Assembly (NCBI RefSeq): GCF_000820845.2 | Contig: NZ_CBXV010000008.1 | Span: 914,705-978,704, forward strand | Source of the DNA: Pyrinomonas methylaliphatogenes | GTDB taxonomy: Bacteria; Acidobacteriota; Blastocatellia; Pyrinomonadales; Pyrinomonadaceae | Direction of reading: 5' to 3' | DNA length: 64,000 nucleotides | The notes under the pieces: generated by a model | What the model was told of the DNA's origin: nothing | What the model saw: only the letters and a program-made list of their open reading frames with translations | Databases searched by the model: none | Made by a program: the position numbers and the translations under genes | Shown: one piece after another, positions 20,697 through 26,683 of the stretch | Numbering within the stretch: the stretch's first letter is position 1 | Layout: each line of letters starts with the position of its first letter

Positions 20697-21722
20697 ATGG
20701 CCGAAAGCGCTGATGAGATCGTCGTGCTTTGGATCACCGCCGGGCTTGGGTGCGATGGCGAGACCATCGCGCTGACCGGCGCGACGCAGCCGAGCCTCGA
20801 AGAGTTGATTCTGGGCGGGCTGCCAGGCATCCCGCGCCTCGTCCTGCACAACCCGCTTCTCGCCTACGAAGTGGGCGAAGAGTTCCTCGCGCCTTTCCAT
20901 CGCGCCGCGCGCGGCGAAATAGACCGGTTCATCCTCGTCATCGAAGGCTCCATCCCGGACGAGACGAACAAGCCGGAAGGTTACTGGGCCGCTTTCGGCG
21001 TGGACCAGCAAACCGGGCAACCGATCACCACGTGCGAATGGATCGACCGGCTGGCACCAAAAGCATGGGCCGTGGTCGCGGTCGGCACGTGCGCCGCCTA
21101 CGGCGGCATCCATGCGATGGAAGGCAATCCAACGGGCTGCATGGGATTAGCTGATTATCTCGGGTGGGATTGGCGCTCGCGCGCCGGCATCCCGATCGTC
21201 AACGTGCCCGGATGCCCGACCTTGCCCGATAACCTGACCGAGACGCTCCTTTATCTGTTGCGCCAAGCGGCGGGGCTGGCGCCGATGATCCCGCTCGACG
21301 ATCAACTGCGCCCGACGTGGCTCTTCGAGCAAACGGCGCACGAAGGATGCAATCGCGGCGGATACTACGAACAGGCGGAGTTCGGCGAAGAGTACGGCTC
21401 GCCTAAATGCATCGTCAAACTGGGTTGCTGGGGGCCGGTGGTCCAGTGCAATGTCGGCCGGCGAAGTTGGCTGGGCGGCGTTGGCGGTTGCGCCAACGTC
21501 GGCGGCATCTGCATCGGCTGCACGATGCCGAGCTTTCCTGACAAGTTCATGCCGTTCATGAATCAACCGCCCGGTTCGTTGCTTTCGTCGCACGCGGTAG
21601 CGACGTATGGCCGGGCCGTGCACGCGCTGCGGCGTTTCACGCAGGCTTCGCTCAACAAGGAACCTAGCTGGCGACAGAAAAAGCCAGTTCAAGCGGCTGG
21701 ATCGGATTCGAGAAATCGCTGA
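20697..21722 (+). CDS. [NiFe]-hydrogenase small subunit, group 1h type, first copy (no adjacent large subunit)
   Basis: 341 residues. It has the iron-sulfur architecture of high-affinity hydrogenase small subunits. The N-terminal ligand region is GLGCDGE (Cys19 to Glu22), then come GTCAAYGG, NVPGCP, HEGC, KCIVKLGCWGP, and the pair CANVGGICIGC. No Tat signal is present, as in group 1h enzymes. In the second copy the residue three after the first Cys is Asp, which replaces Cys as a proximal-cluster ligand in this group; here it is Glu. The gene is followed after 9 nt by a histidine kinase, not by a large subunit. It could be an alternative electron-transfer subunit for the downstream large subunit or part of a signalling complex; both are inference. 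Confidence 0.9.
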   Translation: MAESADEIVVLWITAGLGCDGETIALTGATQPSLEELILGGLPGIPRLVLHNPLLAYEVGEEFLAPFHRAARGEIDRFILVIEGSIPDETNKPEGYWAAFGVDQQTGQPITTCEWIDRLAPKAWAVVAVGTCAAYGGIHAMEGNPTGCMGLADYLGWDWRSRAGIPIVNVPGCPTLPDNLTETLLYLLRQAAGLAPMIPLDDQLRPTWLFEQTAHEGCNRGGYYEQAEFGEEYGSPKCIVKLGCWGPVVQCNVGRRSWLGGVGGCANVGGICIGCTMPSFPDKFMPFMNQPPGSLLSSHAVATYGRAVHALRRFTQASLNKEPSWRQKKPVQAAGSDSRNR

Positions 21723-21731
21723 CCGACGGAA

Positions 21732-23546
21732 ATGAACCGCATGGAAGTGGATCAATCGTGGGGGCAGAAGGCGGAGGATGCGCTCGGGTTGGCGAGCGCA
21801 TCGGAGGCCGAAAAGCTCCTCGTCATGCTCGCGGCCACCTTCTTCCCGTTCTGTTCGGATTCGGCGAACGATATTCAGTGCGCGGCAGAGATGCCTGATA
21901 CGACGACGCTCTACCGCACGCTCGTCGAGCAGATCCCGGCCATCCTCTTCACCGCATCGCTCGAAGGTGGGATCAGTGAAGCTTACGTCAGCCCGCAGAT
22001 CGAACAACTGCTCGGCTTCACGCAAGAAGAATGGTTGAACGATCCAGTGCGTTGGTATCAGCAGATCCACTCGGATGACAAAGCCCGCTGGAGCATGGAC
22101 GCGGCGCAGATGCTGCTCACGGGAGAGCCGCTGCGCGCCGATTACCGCGTGATCGCGCGCGATGGGCGCGTCGTCTGGTTCCATTGCGAGGTCAAGATGG
22201 TGCGCCGCACAGATGGGCGTCCGTGGTTCATTCACGGAGCGGCGTTCGACATTACGGAACTGAAACGGGCCGAAGAAGCTTTGCGCCGCGCAGCGGACGA
22301 ACTTGAAGCGCGAGTCGAAGAGCGCACGGCAGAGCTTGCGCGCGTCAACGCGCAGTTGCGTTCGGAGATCGCCGAGCGCAAGCGCATCGAGGAAGAACTT
22401 CGCCGCGCGCGCGACGAACTCGAAATCCACGTCGAGCAGCGCACCGTTGAACTGGTCAAAGCGAACGAGGCGCTGCTGCGCGAAATCGGCGAACGTCGCC
22501 GCACCGAAGACGCGCTGCGCAAAAGCGAAGGGACCTTGCGCGCGTTGTTCGATTGCGCTCCCGATGCGATCATCGTCATAGATCAACGAGGGTACATCCT
22601 CCAACTGAACGCGCAAGCTGAGAAGATTTTTCAGTATGGGCGCGATGAGATGCAGAATCAATCGATCGAAGTGCTGCTCCCGGAAGTAGACTGGACCAGT
22701 TGGTGCGATCGCGCATTTCACCTTGGCGAATTTGAGTCATGCGGTCAGCGCAAAGATGGGGGGTTGTTCCCCGTCGATGTCCGCTTGAGTCCGACGGAGA
22801 CGAAAGAAGGGCGCTTGGTGATCGCCGTCATTCGCGACATCACAACGCGCAAACAGTCCGAACGCGAACTGCGCGAGTACGCCTCGCGCTTGAAAACGCT
22901 CTCTCGCCGGTTAATGGAAGTGCAGGAGGTCGAGCGCCGGCGCATCGCGCGCGAGCTTCACGACGAAATAGGGCAGACGCTGACCGGCCTGAAGCTGACT
23001 TTGGAGATGGGAGCGCGACTGCCGCGCGAAAAACCTCAAGAAGTATTCGGTCAAGCGCTGGAGATGGTCAACGGACTGATGGCGACGACGCGCAAAATCT
23101 CTTTGGATCTGCGTCCGGGCGTGCTCGACGACCTAGGACTTCTTCCCGCCCTGATCTGGCAGATCGAACACTACACGGCGCAGACGCGCGTGCGCGTCGA
23201 GTTCAAGCATCACGGGCTCGAGGGTCGCCGTCTCCCGCCAGAGGTCGAAACGGCGGCCTACCGCATCGTTCAAGAGGCTTTGACCAACATCGCGCGCCAT
23301 GCGCAAGTGGATGAAGCTGTGGTGCAAGTTTTGGCCGACGATCAGACGATCTTGATCAACGTCGAAGATCGCGGCGTAGGTTTCGATCCTGAAGTCGTCT
23401 TTGCGACGAACGAGACGAGCGGGCTGGCCGGCATGCGCGAACGCGCCGTGTTGCTCGGCGGAAAACTGACGGTCGAATCACGGCCCGGCGGCGGCGCTCG
23501 GTTGACGGCGATTTTGAAGACCGGAAGGAACGAGGTCGCCAGCTAA
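21732..23546 (+). CDS. PAS-domain sensor histidine kinase (HisKA_3, NarX/DegS-type)
   Basis: 604 residues, with no membrane segment, so probably cytoplasmic. A short N-terminal segment holds Cys at 41 and 50. A PAS domain follows (about 58-180, ending DITELKRAEEAL), then a long Arg/Glu-rich coiled coil (about 180-270). A second PAS domain (about 272-385) contains ALFDCAPDAIIVID. The HisKA_3 dimerisation helix carries the phosphoacceptor His410 in RRIARELHDEIGQTL. An HATPase domain shows AYRIVQEALTNIARHA, NVEDRGVGFD and GLAGMRERA. It starts 9 nt after hhyS1 and is followed by a LuxR/NarL-type regulator, its likely partner. The position inside the hydrogenase island suggests control of the hydrogenase genes by redox, oxygen or H2-linked signals; the signal is unknown. 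Confidence 0.93.
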   Translation: MNRMEVDQSWGQKAEDALGLASASEAEKLLVMLAATFFPFCSDSANDIQCAAEMPDTTTLYRTLVEQIPAILFTASLEGGISEAYVSPQIEQLLGFTQEEWLNDPVRWYQQIHSDDKARWSMDAAQMLLTGEPLRADYRVIARDGRVVWFHCEVKMVRRTDGRPWFIHGAAFDITELKRAEEALRRAADELEARVEERTAELARVNAQLRSEIAERKRIEEELRRARDELEIHVEQRTVELVKANEALLREIGERRRTEDALRKSEGTLRALFDCAPDAIIVIDQRGYILQLNAQAEKIFQYGRDEMQNQSIEVLLPEVDWTSWCDRAFHLGEFESCGQRKDGGLFPVDVRLSPTETKEGRLVIAVIRDITTRKQSERELREYASRLKTLSRRLMEVQEVERRRIARELHDEIGQTLTGLKLTLEMGARLPREKPQEVFGQALEMVNGLMATTRKISLDLRPGVLDDLGLLPALIWQIEHYTAQTRVRVEFKHHGLEGRRLPPEVETAAYRIVQEALTNIARHAQVDEAVVQVLADDQTILINVEDRGVGFDPEVVFATNETSGLAGMRERAVLLGGKLTVESRPGGGARLTAILKTGRNEVAS

Positions 23547-23589: not shown

Positions 23590-24240
23590 ATGGTCACGAT
23601 CGTACTGGCAGATGATCATCACATCGTCCGTCAAGGGGTCCGCGCGTTGCTCGAAGCCGAACCGGACTTCGAAGTCGTCGCGGAAACGGGCGATGGGTTG
23701 GAAACGCTTCAAACCCTCGAGCGGTTGAAGCCCAACGTGCTCGTGCTCGATCTGATGATGCCGGGGCTCAACGGGCTCGAGGTCGTGCGCCGCGCGAGCA
23801 GATTGTCGCCGCACACGCGCACGGTGATCCTTTCGATGTATGCCGATGAAGCTTACGTGCTCGAAGCATTGAGAAACGGCGCCGCCGGGTACGTGCTCAA
23901 GGATTCGAGCGCGACCGATCTGGTGAAGGCCATCCGCGAAGCGGCCGCTGGGCGGCGCTACTTGAGCCCGCCGCTCTCCGATCGCGCAATCGAAGCTTAT
24001 CGCGAGAAGGCTGCCGCCACGGCCGTCGATCGGTACGAGACGTTGACCGCGCGCGAACGCGAAGTGCTCCACTTGGCGGCGGAAGGTTACACCAACGCCG
24101 AAATAGCCGCGCGTTTAGGCATCAGCCAGCGCACGGCTGAAACGCACCGCGCGCACCTCATGCACAAGTTGGGGTTGCACACGCAAGCCGACTTGATCCG
24201 CTACGCGCTGCGGCGCGGCATCATCCCGATGGAAGACTGA
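23590..24240 (+). CDS. NarL/LuxR-family response regulator
   Basis: 216 residues. The receiver domain has the acidic pair Asp8/Asp9, phosphoacceptor Asp54 in VLVLDLMMPG, the SMYADEAYV switch region and Lys104 in AGYVLKDSS. The C-terminal LuxR helix-turn-helix (about 148-210) has LTAREREVLHLAAEGYTNAEIAARLGIS and RTAETHRAHLM. It is a DNA-binding output protein paired with the kinase 43 nt upstream. A tandem AAATACGT motif before hhyS2 is one possible target. Confidence 0.95.
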   Translation: MVTIVLADDHHIVRQGVRALLEAEPDFEVVAETGDGLETLQTLERLKPNVLVLDLMMPGLNGLEVVRRASRLSPHTRTVILSMYADEAYVLEALRNGAAGYVLKDSSATDLVKAIREAAAGRRYLSPPLSDRAIEAYREKAAATAVDRYETLTAREREVLHLAAEGYTNAEIAARLGISQRTAETHRAHLMHKLGLHTQADLIRYALRRGIIPMED

Positions 24241-24477: not shown

Positions 24478-25389
24478 ATGGAAGAGTCCGAAGCCGTCGT
24501 GCGATCCAAATTCATCGGCCCACTGTCAAAGGGCCTGCGCGCCACGGCGTCGCTCTACGATGGGATTGAAAGTTCGTTCGAGGATGCGCGCACGCAACGA
24601 AGCTTCGCCGTCTTTCTCGTCTTCATCTTCGCGTTCTCTCTCGTCTTGATCGAAAGCAACAGACAAGGACTGCTGCCTGAAGAACTGCGAGGGCGCATCT
24701 CCACCAATCATTTCGGAGCAGTGGCACTGGCCTTCACTTTGCTGTTGATCTTCGAAGTGTTGTCACTCGTCTTCGCTTTGGCCCGTTCAGTGGCCGATTC
24801 GATAGGCAAGCAGTTCGAGCTTCTCTCGTTGGTGCTTTTGCGCAAAGCTTTCTTCGAGGTGTCACATTTCGGCGAGCCCGTCGATTGGAAGACCGCTGCG
24901 CCCGCCGTGCCGGTCGTCATCGCCGACATGGCCGGCGCGCTGCTCATCTTCGCGGCGACGAGCTTCTACTACCGGTTGCAACGACATCGCCGGATCACCT
25001 CGGACGAAGCGGATCAAGCGGGGTTCGTCGCGGCGAAAAAAGCGGTGGCGCTGCTCCTGTTGGGCGCTTTCATTTTGCTCGGAGCGCGAGAGATGCTGCT
25101 CATCTGGTTGAGCGCTCCTGATCGCGGCGCGCAACGCTTCTTCGAGATCTTCTACACGGTGCTCATCTTCAGCGATGTGCTGTTGGTGCTCATCGCCTTG
25201 TGCTACAGTACGCGCTATCCGGTTGTCTTTCGCAACTCCGGGTTCGCGGCGGCAACCGTCATGATGAGACTGGCGCTGACCGCTCCGCGCTACATCAACG
25301 TGCTGCTCGGTTTGGGAGCGGTGCTCTTCTCCATCGCGCTGACGCTCGCCTACAACTCCTACATGGCCAAACTGGCCGAGCGACAGTGA
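24478..25389 (+). CDS. Multi-pass membrane protein of unknown function in the hydrogenase island
   Basis: 303 residues with about six to seven hydrophobic segments. They start at approximately residues 43 (FAVFLVFIFAFSLVLI), 80 (GAVALAFTLLLIFEVLSLVF), 145, 190 (AVALLLLGAFILLGA), 225 (FSDVLLVLIALC), 260 and 280. No family is recognised. Charged loops such as RHRRITSDEADQ lie between the helices. It lies between the two-component system and the hydrogenase structural genes. A membrane anchor, quinone-linked electron acceptor or ion-coupled partner for the cytosolic hydrogenase is possible, but there is no haem or iron-sulfur motif to support electron transfer. Confidence 0.75.
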   Translation: MEESEAVVRSKFIGPLSKGLRATASLYDGIESSFEDARTQRSFAVFLVFIFAFSLVLIESNRQGLLPEELRGRISTNHFGAVALAFTLLLIFEVLSLVFALARSVADSIGKQFELLSLVLLRKAFFEVSHFGEPVDWKTAAPAVPVVIADMAGALLIFAATSFYYRLQRHRRITSDEADQAGFVAAKKAVALLLLGAFILLGAREMLLIWLSAPDRGAQRFFEIFYTVLIFSDVLLVLIALCYSTRYPVVFRNSGFAAATVMMRLALTAPRYINVLLGLGAVLFSIALTLAYNSYMAKLAERQ

Positions 25390-25618: not shown

Positions 25619-26683
25619 ATGGCAGCCGAAGAGATCCCCTACGGACGAAGAACGCAACATGCGCCCGCCGTCAAAGAAGTGCACATCGTCTGGATCACGG
25701 CCGGCTTGAGCTGCGATGGCGATTCCGTCGCTGTCACCGGCGCAAGCCAACCGAGCATCGAAGATGTGCTCCTCGGCGCGATCCCCGGGCTTCCCAAAGT
25801 CCACCTACACAATCCCGTGCTCGCCTACGAGGTCGGCGAGGATTTCATGCAGTACTACTACAAGGCCGAGCGCGGCGAACTCGATCCGTTCGTCCTCGTC
25901 GTCGAAGGCTCCATCCCCAACGAAGAGATCAAGCGTGAAGGCTACTGGGCAGCGCTCGGAACCGATCCGGCCACTGGGCAACCGATCACGACGAGCGAGT
26001 GGATCAGTCGGCTGGCGCCCAAGGCTTTCGCCGTCGTCGGCATCGGCACGTGCGCAACCTACGGCGGCATCCACGCGATGGCGGGCAACCCGACCGGCTG
26101 CATGGGGCTGGCCGACTATCTGGGCTGGAACTGGCGCTCGCGCGCCGGCATCCCGATCGTCAACGTGCCCGGCTGTCCGGTGCAACCGGATAACTTCATG
26201 GAGACGGTCCTTTACCTGCTCTATCAAGCGGCGGGGCTGGCGCCGATGATCCCGCTCGACGATCAACTGCGCCCAAAGTGGCTTTTCGGCAGCACGGTGC
26301 ATGAAGGCTGCGACCGCGCCGGCTACTACGAGCAAGGCGATTTCGCCAACGAGTACGGCTCGCCTAAATGCATCGTCAAACTGGGTTGCTGGGGGCCGGT
26401 CGTCAACTGCAATGTGCCGAAGCGCGGTTGGATGGCTGGCATCGGTGGCTGTCCCAACGTCGGCGGCATCTGCATCGGCTGCACGATGCCGGGCTTTCCT
26501 GACAAATTCATGCCGTTCATGGATGAACCGCCGGGAGCGCGCGCTTCGACTGGGGCTTCCGCCGTTTACGGCAGAGTGATCCGCAGCTTGCGCAGCATCA
26601 CCAACGCGACCGTCAACAAAGAACCGAAGTGGCGGCGACGCGGAACCGAGTTGACGACCGGTTACCGGCCAAGGACCTACTGA
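25619..26683 (+). CDS. hhyS: [NiFe]-hydrogenase small subunit, group 1h (high-affinity)
   Basis: 354 residues. Iron-sulfur subunit passing electrons from the Ni-Fe site of the adjacent large subunit. The N-terminal ligand region is GLSCDGDS with Cys32 and Asp35, the Cys-x-x-Asp arrangement known for oxygen-tolerant group 1h enzymes. Then come GTCATYGG, NVPGCP, HEGC, KCIVKLGCWGP and CPNVGGICIGC for the proximal, medial and distal clusters. No Tat signal. The start ATG 25619 has GAGGAG 10 nt upstream; an in-frame opening at 25550 lacks one. It is followed 17 nt later by hhyL. Closely similar to hhyS1 throughout the core, which points to gene duplication. Confidence 0.96.
   Translation: MAAEEIPYGRRTQHAPAVKEVHIVWITAGLSCDGDSVAVTGASQPSIEDVLLGAIPGLPKVHLHNPVLAYEVGEDFMQYYYKAERGELDPFVLVVEGSIPNEEIKREGYWAALGTDPATGQPITTSEWISRLAPKAFAVVGIGTCATYGGIHAMAGNPTGCMGLADYLGWNWRSRAGIPIVNVPGCPVQPDNFMETVLYLLYQAAGLAPMIPLDDQLRPKWLFGSTVHEGCDRAGYYEQGDFANEYGSPKCIVKLGCWGPVVNCNVPKRGWMAGIGGCPNVGGICIGCTMPGFPDKFMPFMDEPPGARASTGASAVYGRVIRSLRSITNATVNKEPKWRRRGTELTTGYRPRTY

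Follow-up and report, generated by a model that had tools for sequence, protein, structure and literature searches.

The first of two hydrogenase small subunits encoded in a stretch of Pyrinomonas methylaliphatogenes DNA, a 64,000-nucleotide segment called the window below, probably lets the cell sense hydrogen. P. methylaliphatogenes is a soil bacterium living on trace hydrogen. We favor the interpretation that this subunit, S1, is more than a further catalytic copy and serves as the electron-relay subunit of a two-component H2-sensing system derived from group 1h [NiFe] hydrogenases. S1 carries Glu at a ligand position of its proximal cluster, and the Glu is a real, lineage-specific change confined to the sensor-type copy. 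Features of the locus are collected in Table 1.

Table 1. Features of the S1 locus, with positions in the window.
Feature	Position	Strand	Remarks
S1 (341 aa), HhyS paralogue: group 1h-type small subunit linked to a kinase	20697..21722	+	Other cluster ligands conserved
CDGE motif of S1	20751..20762	+	C19 proximal ligand, D20, G21, E22 fourth proximal-ligand position
C132 of S1, proximal-cluster ligand	21090..21092	+	By homology; Cys in 134/135 sequences having a residue there
C173 of S1, proximal-cluster ligand	21213..21215	+	By homology
T175, L180, T181 of S1	21219..21239	+	Change together with Glu22
Distal ligands H215, C218, C238, C244 of S1	within 21339..21521	+	By homology; all present
Medial ligands C251, C265, C272, C275 of S1	within 21339..21521	+	By homology; all present
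G254 of S1, diagnostic of the kinase-linked clade	21456..21458	+	48/49 Gly; Pro/Thr in 74/75 catalytic
PAS-PAS-HisKA_3-HATPase histidine kinase	21732..23546	+	Starts 9 bases past the S1 stop codon
PAS1 of the kinase, conserved partner of S1-type subunits	21906..22265	+	72% mean pairwise identity, 32 kinases
NarL/LuxR-type response regulator (Response_reg and GerE)	23590..24240	+	
ORF6, without a Pfam family	24478..25389	+	Homologues (49-50%) after the regulator beside Huc: L117, L124, L125
S2, catalytic group 1h small subunit	25619..26683	+	CDGD at 25712-25723
HhyL; no other group 1h-type large subunit found in this genome	26701..28500	+	

Pfam (PF01058 and PF14720) identifies both S1 and the second copy, S2, as [NiFe] hydrogenase small subunits, and the closest solved relative of each is the actinobacterial-type enzyme of Ralstonia eutropha, 5aa5. 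The best match of S1 was 5aa5_A, at 568 bits compared with 161 for the next, which supports kinship with group 1h, and S2 aligned with 5aa5_A across positions 1-350 in phmmer. In group 1h, three Cys and one Asp ligate the proximal cluster (PMC8498564, citing Schaefer 2016). A preliminary description had read CDGE in the first small subunit and CDGD in the second, and had taken the last residue of the motif for the proximal-cluster ligand. Both motifs were confirmed, S1 reading tgc gat ggc gag and S2 spanning C32 to D35, and phmmer paired E22 of S1 with the Asp of CDGD in 5aa5_A. Moreover, the same column was Cys in 12 distant relatives with 47-53% identity, as well as in HoxB, and position 22 is therefore the fourth proximal-ligand position. 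The description had allowed that another residue might be the true fourth ligand, and the alignment with those four-Cys relatives ruled this out. We conclude that S1 departs from the CDGD signature of group 1h by having Glu in place of the Asp ligand.

To place the Glu, small subunits were gathered from genomes of the same class and phylum as the window, from 75 named loci and from plasmid records that included Ralstonia pHG1, Mycobacterium, Kitasatospora and Methylocystis, and each copy was classed by its next gene as kinase-linked (a kinase) or catalytic (a large subunit). Glu occupied position 22 in 13 of 49 kinase-linked copies and Asp in the other 36, whereas the copies with a large subunit as next gene had 0 Glu and 73 Asp (Fisher p 2.4e-6 for Glu versus gene linkage, a statistic that ignores relatedness). 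Glu was thus not common in catalytic small subunits, the circumstance named beforehand as one that would undo the proposal. The expectation that Glu tracks with the kinase-linked copy held insofar as Glu occurred only there, but because most kinase-linked copies keep Asp, Glu tracks with that copy and does not define it, which also rejects Glu as a marker for such copies in general. Likewise, a different role for the duplicate is very likely, but Glu is not what sets the copy apart. Position 22 was solely D or E in all 49 kinase-linked sequences, and so strict a carboxylate argues that the ligand role is kept. We note that in four plasmid records (L151, L152, L153 and L155) the group 1h small subunit goes under the name "hydrogenase expression protein HypE," which looks like a systematic misannotation, and that a MAG labeled Betaproteobacteria, CAJCHZ (L069 and L104), carries acidobacterial-type S1 and S2, its contigs probably being misbinned or mislabeled.

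Neither a sequencing error nor chance accounted for the Glu. The former was rejected because Glu occurred in 13 sequences, including the congeneric G126/L032 and 11 further distinct ones, with the codon GAA in 9 and GAG in 4. The latter was rejected because the column was Asp in every catalytic group 1h subunit and Glu was always accompanied by T or A at residue 175, two residues past the proximal ligand C173. Residue 175 was T/A in 13/13 Glu sequences and 0/113 Asp sequences, all of which had V or I, and was Pro in the three Cys outgroup rows of the alignment. In addition, every Glu sequence had Leu, Ile or Met at residue 180, where nearly all the rest had Phe. The changes at 175 and 180 look like packing around a longer side chain, with independent events too few for statistics. 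The number of such events depended on the tree: a quick tree required two Glu changes, and a careful tree built without columns 22, 175, 180 and 181 required five (bootstrap range 3-5). A single Glu clade was nonetheless compatible with the data (AU p 0.345), with only one independent pair on starred branches, and repeated independent origin of Glu was therefore not established. The trees suggest that Glu arose once or a few times inside the kinase-linked clade and that the clade itself appears to be older than Glu.

One way in which such a pattern could arise is neutral drift, in which Glu22 would be a change without functional meaning in a duplicate whose constraint has relaxed. A single base change turns D into E, the origins of Glu were few, and Glu was confined to a paralogue that is not the main enzyme. 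Drift would nevertheless have had to leave nothing but D or E across the kinase-linked sequences, to let Glu persist across divergent lineages, three of them with a dedicated large subunit, and to match Glu with T/A175 in every case while V/I was kept with every Asp. We consider drift rather unlikely, and note that it is compatible with S1 acting as a sensor subunit. That Glu22 still binds iron or shifts the cluster potential, as the preliminary description supposed, is plausible. Glu is a natural ligand of the proximal [4Fe-4S] cluster of NfnL (PMC9503767), an unrelated enzyme that proves only that such ligation exists. A survey of ligand substitutions in hydrogenases left out Glu as rare at ligand positions and likely to need second-sphere substitutions (PMC4070099), and column 175 is a candidate for a second-sphere substitution accompanying Glu22. 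The AlphaFold model of S1 alone was poor in its C-terminal half (mean pLDDT 69). We infer that Glu22 ligates iron in S1.

The kinase-linked small subunits formed one clade, apart from their catalytic counterparts in the same genomes (SH-aLRT 99), and the clade was retained without the columns that covary with Glu (bootstrap/SH-aLRT 100/99). It included a few members from Planctomycetota and Verrucomicrobia and one deltaproteobacterial MAG; a survey of Planctomycetota returned nothing beyond the known case. The S1 of an uncultured Pyrinomonas, the nearest named record, was 99.7% identical. S1-type subunits keep every Fe-S ligand other than position 22 as well as 149 of the 181 columns conserved in catalytic subunits, and the relay of S1 is thus under selection. 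An N-terminal PxGRxT motif was found in 0/49 S1-type versus 56/75 catalytic subunits, and a C-terminal TGY in 2/49 versus 71/75. The defining traits of the kinase-linked copy are a kinase with a conserved PAS domain, the loss of PxGRxT and TGY, and G254. We note that an extra Cys169, four residues before C173 (IVCVPGC), occurs in 41/49 kinase-linked subunits where 70/73 catalytic ones have Asn, and that S1 of the window has Asn in this column (21201-21203).

The retained ligands and conserved columns are also what would be expected if S1 were an alternative catalytic small subunit, which with HhyL would form a second uptake enzyme of other acceptor or affinity, the kinase merely regulating the operon. 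The absence of PxGRxT and TGY from S1-type subunits is left unexplained by such an arrangement. The kinase offered a further point of comparison. A kinase directly follows the small subunit in nearly every member of the S1-type clade, an exception being L092, in which a large subunit comes next and the kinase lies further down. Across 32 kinases, identity outside PAS1 was 26-37%, and 32-36% in the transmitter, well below that of PAS1 itself; the transmitters varied between HisKA_3 and HisKA, mostly the former, and the scanned regulators were of the LuxR/GerE type. Of 162 class genomes, PAS1 (E<=1e-25) was present in exactly 14, and these were the 14 that have S1-type subunits. Moreover, among 396 genomes of the phylum, PAS1 was found at 66-100% identity in 10/10 genomes with S1-type subunits and 0/4 with S2 only, and other PAS matches were at most 48% identical, although these co-occurrence counts ignore shared ancestry. 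A second catalytic subunit explains neither why PAS1 pairs with S1-type subunits and not with S2 only, nor why, within the kinase, conservation is highest in PAS1.

In comparisons of fold, LOV, FixL and AhR PAS domains matched PAS1 at similar scores, so that the fold did not single out a cofactor for PAS1. C152 of the kinase (window 22185-22187) is a nearly invariant PAS1 Cys and a candidate redox or cofactor contact. A second PAS1 kinase and regulator were seen in two genomes, lying beside S2 with no S1 directly before them in G068 (L111/L087), and upstream of S1 rather than directly behind it in G152 (L113).

The genome of the window (3.79 Mb, 16 contigs) encodes two small subunits and one large, the same 2:1 count was found in most relatives checked, and a search of the genome for a dedicated S1 large subunit elsewhere found none. 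The gene counts suggest that one HhyL is common to the two small subunits. Other arrangements were also observed. L043 and L045 have the order S1, kinase, large subunit, whereas in three relatives (G031, G058 and one G053 locus; loci L117, L124 and L125) a cassette of S1(Glu), a group 1h-type large subunit of its own (70-72%), the kinase, the regulator and ORF6 neighbors a Huc-type group 2a hydrogenase. The cassette can therefore move independently of the 1h enzyme. The Huc-type genes directly after the cassette span 762-3376 in L125, 16851-19474 in L124 and 15641-18254 in L117; that of L125 was assigned by its small subunit (E 1e-190 to 7uur) and large subunit (9e-273 to 7uus), and those of L117 and L124 by the same motif and position. 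The ORF6 homologues lie at 12543-13457 in L117, 13458-14369 in L124 and 5775-6740 in L125, and ORF6, between the regulator and the catalytic genes of both 1h and Huc, could be an accessory or membrane protein common to the two.

G031 and G058 have an S1-type subunit only, with a 72% large subunit, which would suit a catalytic role for S1, as would expression of an hhyS homologue in Acidobacteriaceae KBS 83 and not in E. aggregans, reported in PMC8027828. A catalytic role does not explain the S1 cassette beside a Huc hydrogenase, and together with the points above we regard it as improbable. That S1 has no dedicated large subunit in most genomes could alternatively indicate that S1 and the kinase form an Fe-S redox or O2 sensor that works without a large subunit, and the extra Cys169 near C173 would fit such a sensor. 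Genomes that have S1-type subunits without S2 (G514, G515, G031 and G058), however, have a large subunit in or beside the cassette, and S1-type subunits retain, throughout, most of the columns that catalytic subunits conserve. A sensor without a large subunit is thus the least probable of the readings weighed here.

We prefer an H2-sensing role for S1 and propose how it might work. S1 would partner a [NiFe] large subunit, either HhyL shared with S2, as in the window, or one of its own, as in some relatives. H2 oxidized at the large subunit would reduce all three S1 clusters (proximal, medial and distal), and PAS1 of the adjacent kinase would read the reduced state or the docked complex. The kinase would then signal through the NarL-type regulator to hydrogenase genes. 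Pairing with a large subunit, H2 as the signal, contact with the PAS domain and the regulated genes are each inferred. In one lineage of the sensor clade, the proximal Asp ligand was replaced by Glu together with a matching second-shell change of V175 to T/A. The carboxylate is retained but longer, and most likely tunes or relaxes the proximal cluster of a complex that does not need fast turnover.

In soils, Acidobacteria actively consume atmospheric H2, and for P. methylaliphatogenes, E. aggregans and KBS 83 an extra copy of hhyS has been reported some 3.6 kb upstream of the structural genes (both in PMC8027828). The gene described there is the same kind of gene as S1 and is treated as an hhyS homologue; the main text of PMC8027828 has 0 occurrences of the word kinase. 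The extra copy is thus already known, whereas we found no report of its kinase/PAS coupling in the open literature searched, and likewise no account of H2 sensing or group 1h regulation in Acidobacteria. If S1 and the PAS1 kinase are an H2 sensor, [NiFe]-hydrogenase-based H2 sensing would have originated a second time, possibly with one large subunit for both enzyme and sensor, and the extra hhyS, so far reported without a function, would acquire one. More tentatively, at somewhat under even chances, we propose an H2 sensor that came from group 1h independently of group 2b, in which a dedicated small subunit and PAS domain borrow their catalytic large subunit from the enzyme that they regulate, and in which one lineage has a proximal cluster ligated by Glu. 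The Glu lineage is a natural experiment on the hydrogenase proximal cluster.

Compared with group 1h HhySL (former group 5, actinobacterial-type; 5aa5 of R. eutropha H16), S1 is about 59-69% identical to the catalytic small subunits and has the same three-cluster ligand set, with a carboxylate at the fourth proximal position. S1 differs in belonging to a separate clade, in being followed by the kinase instead of hhyL, which is the next gene after S2, in lacking PxGRxT and TGY, in having G254 and, in one lineage, in having Glu for Asp. The group 2b sensors HoxBC/HoxJ and HupUV/HupT resemble the S1 system in that a small subunit, a PAS histidine kinase and a response regulator are encoded with a hydrogenase. 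Group 2b large subunits are without the C-terminal extension that an endopeptidase removes; such a loss was not seen in S1-associated large subunits, which keep residues past DPCxxC. HoxB is 36% identical to S1, compared with 69% for the group 1h subunit encoded on the plasmid of HoxB, which places S1 outside group 2b. Homology between PAS1 and HoxJ was not detectable, HoxJ aligning weakly to the kinase outside PAS1, the kinase of the S1 system is mostly HisKA_3, and its regulator is NarL-type whereas HoxA is sigma-54 dependent. The proposed H2-sensing logic is the same as that of HoxBCJ/HupUVT (PMC10073562), and the best reading is that the S1 system is analogous to, and not homologous with, those sensors.
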